Below are positions 10,829 to 31,678 of a stretch of DNA of 36,442 nucleotides, one piece after another. Source of the DNA: Christensenellaceae bacterium (lineage in GTDB: Bacteria; Bacillota; Clostridia; Christensenellales; UBA1750); NCBI GenBank assembly GCA_031280685.1, contig JAITGM010000003.1:1-36442 (forward strand), in the 5' to 3' direction. Made by a program: the position numbers and the translations under genes. Each line of letters opens with the position of its first letter. Position 1 is the first letter of the stretch. The notes under the pieces were generated by a model. The model saw only the letters and a list, made by a program, of their open reading frames with translations, was not told the origin of the DNA and made no database searches.

Positions 10829-10859
10829 CAAAAAAAGGCGCCCCGGTCGTCGGGGCGCC
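10829..10859 (-). terminator. Terminator of the DUF6232 operon
   Basis: A perfect 9-bp stem (GGCGCCCCG/CGGGGCGCC) with a 5-nt loop is followed on the minus strand by seven T. It lies 13 bp past the stop of the 108-aa gene. Confidence 0.9.
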
Positions 10860-10871
10860 ATCGGCAAAGGC

Positions 10872-11198
10872 TTAAAGCGTGATGCTTTGCGCGATAAAGT
10901 CCGCCAAGAGCGTCAAGCCCAGCTCCTTGGCCAGTTCCAGCGCAACGCCACCCAGCTTTTTAAGCGCCGCCTTCAATTTTCCTTCTTCCTGGGCTTGTGC
11001 CGCGCTCTTCGCTTCCTCAAGGGCCGGGATTTCCGATGAGGAATCGCCACGCGCCGCTCTGCAGCAAGCTAAAACCGCGGTGAGCTGCTCTTCCAACGCC
11101 GCAAAGTCCAAGGTTGGGGCCGCGCCCTGCTTAATGGTCACGCCACAGCTCTTGTTCACGATGTTGCCGCTGCCCACGTTCATGATGCTGTCTGCCAT
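10872..11198 (-). CDS. Small protein with N-terminal Gly/Asn motif and helical C-terminus
   Basis: The 108-residue product has no named family that I can give with confidence. Residues 6-22 hold MNVGSGNIVNKSCGV, a short beta-prone Gly/Asn motif. Residues from about 30 form helices, including an acidic-to-basic stretch (EEAKSAAQAQEEGKLKAALK) and a hydrophobic end (LALELAKELGLTLLADF is the general character). The upstream membrane protein ends with nearly the same motif. The ATG starts 1 nt after that gene's TGA and has no ribosome binding site of its own, so it is probably made by translational coupling. The architecture recalls small effector-associated or adaptor proteins that carry amyloid-like motifs, which is inference. 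Confidence 0.75.
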   Translation of the reverse strand: MADSIMNVGSGNIVNKSCGVTIKQGAAPTLDFAALEEQLTAVLACCRAARGDSSSEIPALEEAKSAAQAQEEGKLKAALKKLGGVALELAKELGLTLLADFIAQSITL

Positions 11199-11199
11199 C

Positions 11200-11697
11200 T
11201 CAAGCGCTCACATTCTGGGACTGGTTCACGATCGTCCCCGAGCCGAAGTTCATGAGGATGTTTTCGGTCGTTTTACCCGTGCGCACGATCTCCGAAATGG
11301 TTTCAAAAGCCTCCTGAATAAAAAAAGTGCTGCTCGAAACGAAGGAGTAGGTGCCGCCTGAGCTCATCTCAATATGCAGGCCGAACAAATCCTGGTTGCT
11401 GTTAGCAGTCCACAGGCCAAGCCCGATTCCCGCGATAAGAAGAGCGAGCCCCAAAAGAACCGGCACCGGCTGAGGATTCCCAAAGCGATCAGGACTCTGC
11501 CAAAGGGCCACGGCGCCGGCCGCGCACAGGGCGATGATCCAGAGCCAGGGAAGGGGCTTTTTGGGCAATTGCCCCGTCCAAACCTGACTGATATTCGAGA
11601 TTTGGATGAAGTTCTCTTGGCAGCGAATGATATTGCCCTCAATTCTCACATTCTCGTTTTGGAAGACCTTACCGGTATCCGGCGTGCTGCTTGCCAT
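11200..11697 (-). CDS. DUF6232-like membrane protein with C-terminal Gly/Asn motif
   Basis: The 165-residue protein has a short N-terminal beta region (about 10-42), two membrane helices (about 49-66 and 78-97), then a cytosolic segment (LFGLHIEMSSGGTYSF and onward) ending in a helix. This matches the plan of DUF6232 proteins, whose function is unknown. The C-terminus is unusual: residues 148-163 read MNFGSGTIVNQSQNV, almost the motif found at the N-terminus of the next protein. AGAGGGGA precedes the ATG. Transcription starts from a promoter with a G10 tract in its spacer. Confidence 0.75.
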   Translation of the reverse strand: MASSTPDTGKVFQNENVRIEGNIIRCQENFIQISNISQVWTGQLPKKPLPWLWIIALCAAGAVALWQSPDRFGNPQPVPVLLGLALLIAGIGLGLWTANSNQDLFGLHIEMSSGGTYSFVSSSTFFIQEAFETISEIVRTGKTTENILMNFGSGTIVNQSQNVSA

Positions 11698-11774: not shown

Positions 11775-11805
11775 ATCATACCCCCCCCCCTGTCCAATTT
11801 GTCAA
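11775..11805 (-). promoter_or_regulatory. Promoter of the DUF6232 operon with a G10 tract in the spacer
   Basis: On the minus strand a perfect TTGACA (11800-11805) and TATGAT (11775-11780) are separated by 19 bp, of which the last ten are all G (11781-11790). The spacing is 2 bp above optimum, so loss or gain of single G residues should change promoter strength. The leader of about 70 nt contains a strong CCCGGGCG/CGCCCGGG hairpin (11739-11764). Confidence 0.75.
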
Positions 11806-31663: not shown

Positions 31664-31678
31664 CCCCCCCCCCCCCCC
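31664..31678. repeat. Homopolymer of 15 C
   Basis: Fifteen C in a row lie directly after the second tandem repeat, about 50 bp past uvrC. No promoter elements frame it. It is a likely site of length change or sequencing error. Confidence 0.9.

Follow-up and report, generated by a model that had tools for sequence, protein, structure and literature searches.

A G10 tract in the promoter spacer of a DUF6232 operon: a candidate slippage-tuned promoter within a class of G-run promoters in an order of uncultured gut Clostridia

In porA of Neisseria meningitidis a poly-G run of 9-11 G between the -35 and -10 elements sets the level of expression (PMC3639595). The tp0126 promoter of Treponema pallidum also carries a poly-G between these elements and is transcribed best at a spacing of 17 bp, and the run of tprL in the same organism ranges from 7 to 11, with 9 as the commonest length (PMC7864442). 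Slippage of a G run in a Gram-positive gut commensal is described for the pilus switch of Bifidobacterium breve (PMC9187656), and a survey of homopolymeric tracts in prokaryotes concerns coding sequences (PMC2831843). An earlier note on the DNA studied here had called the mechanism known from host-associated pathogens and rarely described in Clostridia of this kind. The latter agrees with our searches of the open-licence literature, where nothing was found on phase variation in connection with the Christensenellales and no report of a G-run promoter class in the order of the genome concerned.

The DNA analysed, hereafter the window, is a stretch of 36,442 nucleotides from a Christensenellaceae bacterium (GCA_031280685.1, contig JAITGM010000003.1). 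It contains a two-gene operon and its promoter on the minus strand, with the features given below; G001 denotes the sister species, the one relative of the same genus that was compared.

11800 to 11805, minus strand: -35 element TTGACA, a perfect consensus by direct reading, identical in G001
11791 to 11799, minus strand: non-repeat part of the spacer, AATTGGACA, 9 bases; AAAAGGGAA, of equal length, in G001
11781 to 11790, minus strand: G10 homopolymer GGGGGGGGGG in the promoter spacer, a candidate slippage tract; G10 also in G001
11775 to 11780, minus strand: -10 element TATGAT, 5/6 of the consensus, kept in G001 with the following GGATAA
11200 to 11697, minus strand: first gene, a DUF6232 protein of 165 aa with the C-terminal motif ENILMNFGSGTIVNQSQNVSA (PF19744, E 1.2e-7)
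10872 to 11198, minus strand: second gene, a soluble, probably helical protein of 108 aa with the N-terminal motif IMNVGSGNIVNKSCGVTIKQG, 65% identical in G001
10837 to 10859, minus strand: likely operon terminator, a strong hairpin of 9 G-C pairs followed by T7

The promoter of the DUF6232 operon reads TTGACA AATTGGACA GGGGGGGGGG TATGAT (minus strand, 11805-11775) with a total spacer of 19 bp, exactly as the earlier note had described it: a perfect -35, a good -10 and a 19-bp spacer ending in ten G. Sites of the form TTGACA-N15-20-TATNAT were seen three times in the window, compared to 0.00 expected from shuffles of the window, and the window also holds an 18-bp promoter just upstream of apparent tRNA genes. 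The generic promoter scan covered spacers of 16-18 only and for that reason missed the 19-bp promoter.

A homopolymer of at least about 8 between a recognisable -35 and -10 marks the promoters of the porA and tp0126 type, and the G10 promoter contains such a run. The likeness to porA thus lies in the G run between the two elements, and it extends to tp0126 and the tpr promoters, which also have a poly-G in the promoter, that of tp0126 again between -35 and -10. The settings differ, however. The product of porA is an outer-membrane porin of a pathogen, for which length variation and antibody escape have been shown, and those of tp0126 and the tpr genes are spirochaete outer-membrane proteins whose promoters were tested with reporters and fragment analysis, whereas the DUF6232 gene encodes a predicted inner-membrane protein of an uncultured Clostridia lineage. 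The G tract of Bifidobacterium breve, in contrast, lies in a coding sequence and acts by frameshift, while the run described here would act on promoter spacing.

The spacings of other promoters in the genome indicate what a 19-bp spacer may mean. Among 36 sites matching TTGACA-N12-22-TATRAT, the spacer is 17 bp in 14, 18 bp in 12 and 16 bp in 4, four sites have short spacers (12-13) and may be due to chance, and spacers of 19 and 20 belong only to the two G-run promoters. Since ordinary promoters of this genome mostly fall within 16-18 bp, a spacer of 19 lies off the range, and a loss of one or two G brings it back. We therefore read the DUF6232 promoter as slippage-tuned in the manner of porA and tp0126 and resting at a weak setting of 19 bp, and give this reading a probability of about 0.6. 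It would be a sigma-70 type promoter in which a slippage-prone G run takes up part of the spacer and, by its length, determines how strong the promoter is. Slippage of the DNA polymerase would at times add or remove a G and so shift the distance between -35 and -10. With G10 the spacer of 19 bp is beyond the ordinary 16-18, so that weak transcription would be expected of the assembled state, which is that of the majority; with one or two G lost the spacer becomes 18 or 17 bp, and transcription of the operon should rise. Three parts of this reading are inferred: that the run varies in this species, in which direction a change acts, and that the cell gains from it.

A spacer of this length has another possible meaning. 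MerR-regulated promoters typically have spacers of 19-20 bp, and a long spacer kept for twisting by an activator would account for the 19 bp seen in both species. The fit in length is outweighed by the rest of the element: AATTGGACA-G10 has no dyad symmetry, the nine spacer bases outside the run show little sequence conservation, and other promoters of the class described below have spacers from 9 to 23. We rejected this candidate on the missing dyad and regard it as very improbable.

The comparison with the sister species speaks about the history of the element. Among 41 genomes the DUF6232 gene was found in G001 only, besides the window's own, and the two proteins are 62% identical. The promoter in G001 is TTGACA-AAAAGGGAA-G10-TATGAT, also with a spacer of 19, and the alignment of the window with G001 has a conserved block from GAT.TTGACAAA to G10TATGATGGATAA amid gapped and diverged intergenic DNA. 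From this pattern the promoter element looks selected. The equal G10 of both species is compatible with a slow switch as well as with a fixed element. MutS is present in the genus and lowers mononucleotide slippage; together with G10 in both species this may mean that switching is slow. The candidate phase-variable switch proposed in the earlier note is the best available reading, for which the sister promoter, the order-wide class and the porA and tp0126 precedents speak, and is held back by the equal runs of both species and by MutS.

It could be argued that a G run in such a genome is a chance feature of an ordinary promoter, or that its length is misassembled. The window has as many G7 as its shuffles, the run alone not being rare in a GC-rich genome, and G8+ runs are many genome-wide and accumulate at the ends of contigs. 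Several contigs of this genome (L037, L044, L045, L048) end in long G/C homopolymers of up to 24, which are probably the sites where the assembly broke. Within the window, a C15 run lies at 31664-31678, beyond a long ORF and beside a short imperfect repeat, with no adjoining promoter elements. What matters is the position of the G run before the -10 and not the run alone: G8+ followed by TATRAT within 5 bases occurs at 3 distinct places of the genome (4 matches), compared to 0 for the reversed pattern. Moreover, the same run stands in the independent genome G001, the class numbers about 130 matches against 0 reversed, and the 277 kb of class loci hold 3 other G8+ runs, the loci having been chosen for having one. 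A chance run or an assembly error is therefore already disfavoured, and we consider it improbable.

Two further G-run promoters were noticed in the same genome. On contig C44, TTGACA-G16-AGGT-TATGAT (spacer 20) precedes a gene for a secreted SH3 protein, and on contig C4, TTGACG-GGA-G9-TATAAT (spacer 12) precedes a lipoprotein gene. In G001 the orthologue of the C44 gene, at 58% identity, has no G run; directly before a TATGAT upstream of it lies an array of 6.6 copies of ATGGC (L323:1374-1406, G001 contig C229). Such an array in the promoter region there, itself a repeat of the slippage type, would support the view that the design exists for slippage.

Beyond this genome, about 130 matches to the pattern TTGACA-N1-12-G8+-N0-7-TATRAT were listed for the order, spread over 59 of 396 genomes, and the reversed form gave none. 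When only the G run and the -10 were searched for, a TTGAC stood at promoter-like distance in 13 of 16 places, and for this reason we take these places to be promoters. Run lengths in the 125 distinct cases of the order are 8 (15 cases), 9 (69), 10 (29) and longer (12), and the spacers range from 9 to 23, mostly 15-20, whereas ordinary promoters in the same loci have 17 bp in 8 of 10 cases. The genus g59 was searched with a looser G5 pattern. Its run lengths are bimodal (27 of length 5, 6 of 6, 2 of 7, 15 of 8, 29 of 9 and 8 of 10), with a dip at 6-7 and the maximum of the long runs at 9. The spacer of 17 bp is found in 5 of 56 long-run promoters of g59 compared to 23 of 33 short-run ones (p 3e-9), and the spacers of the long-run promoters scatter over 13-21 without a peak at 17. 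Long-run promoters are thus robustly not concentrated at 17 bp. The conserved island in G001, the bimodal run lengths of g59 and the empty reversed control all point to retention of the run by selection.

A rival reading makes the run a fixed promoter feature, a G-specific spacer that keeps the promoter at a sub-optimal set strength or lets supercoiling, or a DNA-binding regulator of lipoprotein-type genes, act on it. The strand of the run fits such a feature. The coding strand carries G and never C: the C-run version of the promoter had 0 matches in the same 26 genomes as the g59 search, and slippage alone does not predict this absence, which therefore counts against slippage alone. In the order set, the total spacer varies less than it does when run lengths are shuffled across the promoters (p 0.016), and spacers of 17 bp are under-represented (6 observed, 16.4 by permutation, p 0.0005). 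A joint avoidance of 17 bp by run length and remaining spacer is a lead; in the independent g59 subset, however, the deficit is unconfirmed (5 vs 6.8 expected, p 0.28), and the spacers of the class, with their range of 9 to 23, are hardly those of a fixed element.

Run lengths among related copies bear on both sides. The run is constant in most diverged paralogues, as it is in the two species of the genus: all copies in G108 have G9, six copies in G393 have G8, and 16 of 17 paralogous promoters of G397 have G8 and one G7, over downstream DNA that is just 54-90% identical. On the other hand, some close copies do differ (11/12 in G098, 10/11 in L307, 10/9 in G402 and 9/8 in G217/G280). Judging by these copies, runs of 8-9 look stable and length changes seem to come more easily in longer ones, as slippage predicts. 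The constancy of G8-9 implies low slippage rates, with MutS present, or selection on length. Two contigs of G041, C2 and C4 (L053, L063), stop shortly past one and the same promoter, TTGACA-GAGC-G9-ACG-TATAAT. This suggests that the gene following the G-run promoter is a repeated one, perhaps rRNA. If the gene is repeated, a G-run promoter there would argue for fixed, constitutive use, and the G9 common to both contig ends agrees with this. A fixed element is, however, at odds with the close copies of unequal length and with the tandem pentamer that one orthologue has in place of the G run. Weighing these points, we consider a fixed feature the main rival explanation of the run, though a rather unlikely one.

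The class also has a distinct set of genes behind it. A simple lipobox test was positive for 55 of 109 non-redundant downstream proteins; among the remaining ORFs of these loci it marked 9 of 103 (p 1e-11). By this test the class consists mainly of surface-lipoprotein promoters. In G397 about 17 paralogous lipoprotein genes each lie behind their own TTGACA-N4-G8-TGN-TATAAT promoter, one with G7 (L332-L348). A scan of named genomes used the 8/9-G10 build and required G10, and shows the spread over taxa and not run-length statistics; among the matches listed, the build occurs in uncultured Clostridia and Bacilli, Anaeroplasmataceae, Lachnospiraceae, Streptobacillus notomytis, Treponema and Saccharibacteria, many of these groups being host-associated. 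Streptobacillus notomytis, a host-associated fusobacterium, has several TTGACA-N8/9-G10-TATAAT promoters, apparently a set (L209, L227, L245, L260).

The DUF6232 operon itself is an atypical, non-surface member of this class. The family assignment of the earlier note is borne out by PF19744 at 32.6 bits over a curated cut-off of 27.4, the G001 orthologue scoring 42.5 bits. The protein has two predicted membrane helices, and a search for a signal peptide and a lipobox found neither. Its single-sequence fold has low confidence (pLDDT 55) and would support a rough order of strand, membrane hairpin and strand-helix, and that alone. The second protein has no Pfam match at E up to 10, a PADLOC search with both proteins gave no match, the viral contigs searched held no homologues, and a literature search on DUF6232 found nothing. 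The surface or defence function proposed earlier for the operon is thus unsupported, as there is neither an export signal nor a match to a known defence family. The surface-exposed product that is customarily expected behind such a switch is lacking in the DUF6232 gene and present in the promoter class (lipobox in 55/109). GSGTIVNQS closes the first protein and GSGNIVNKS opens the second (window 10872-11697), and the shared GSGxIVNxS is kept in G001. Such a shared motif would fit two proteins acting together, possibly through a homotypic interaction.

Promoters of this kind are already known from porA and tp0126; judging by the open-licence literature searched, the DUF6232 promoter and the order-wide class appear to be new for the lineage. 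Tentatively, the class could serve default-low bet-hedging, in which each gene has a private promoter whose spacing misses the 17-bp optimum by a base or two, and rare slippage would activate single genes in single cells. Such bet-hedging, a rather unlikely proposal, would span a large set of G-run promoters on lipoprotein-type genes in uncultured gut Clostridia. Slippage-tuned promoters have so far been described mainly in a small number of pathogens. Should the class switch, the surface lipoproteins would differ from cell to cell throughout a whole order of uncultured gut Clostridia, which would affect interactions with phage, the immune system and neighbours as well as the expression that is inferred from metagenomes.
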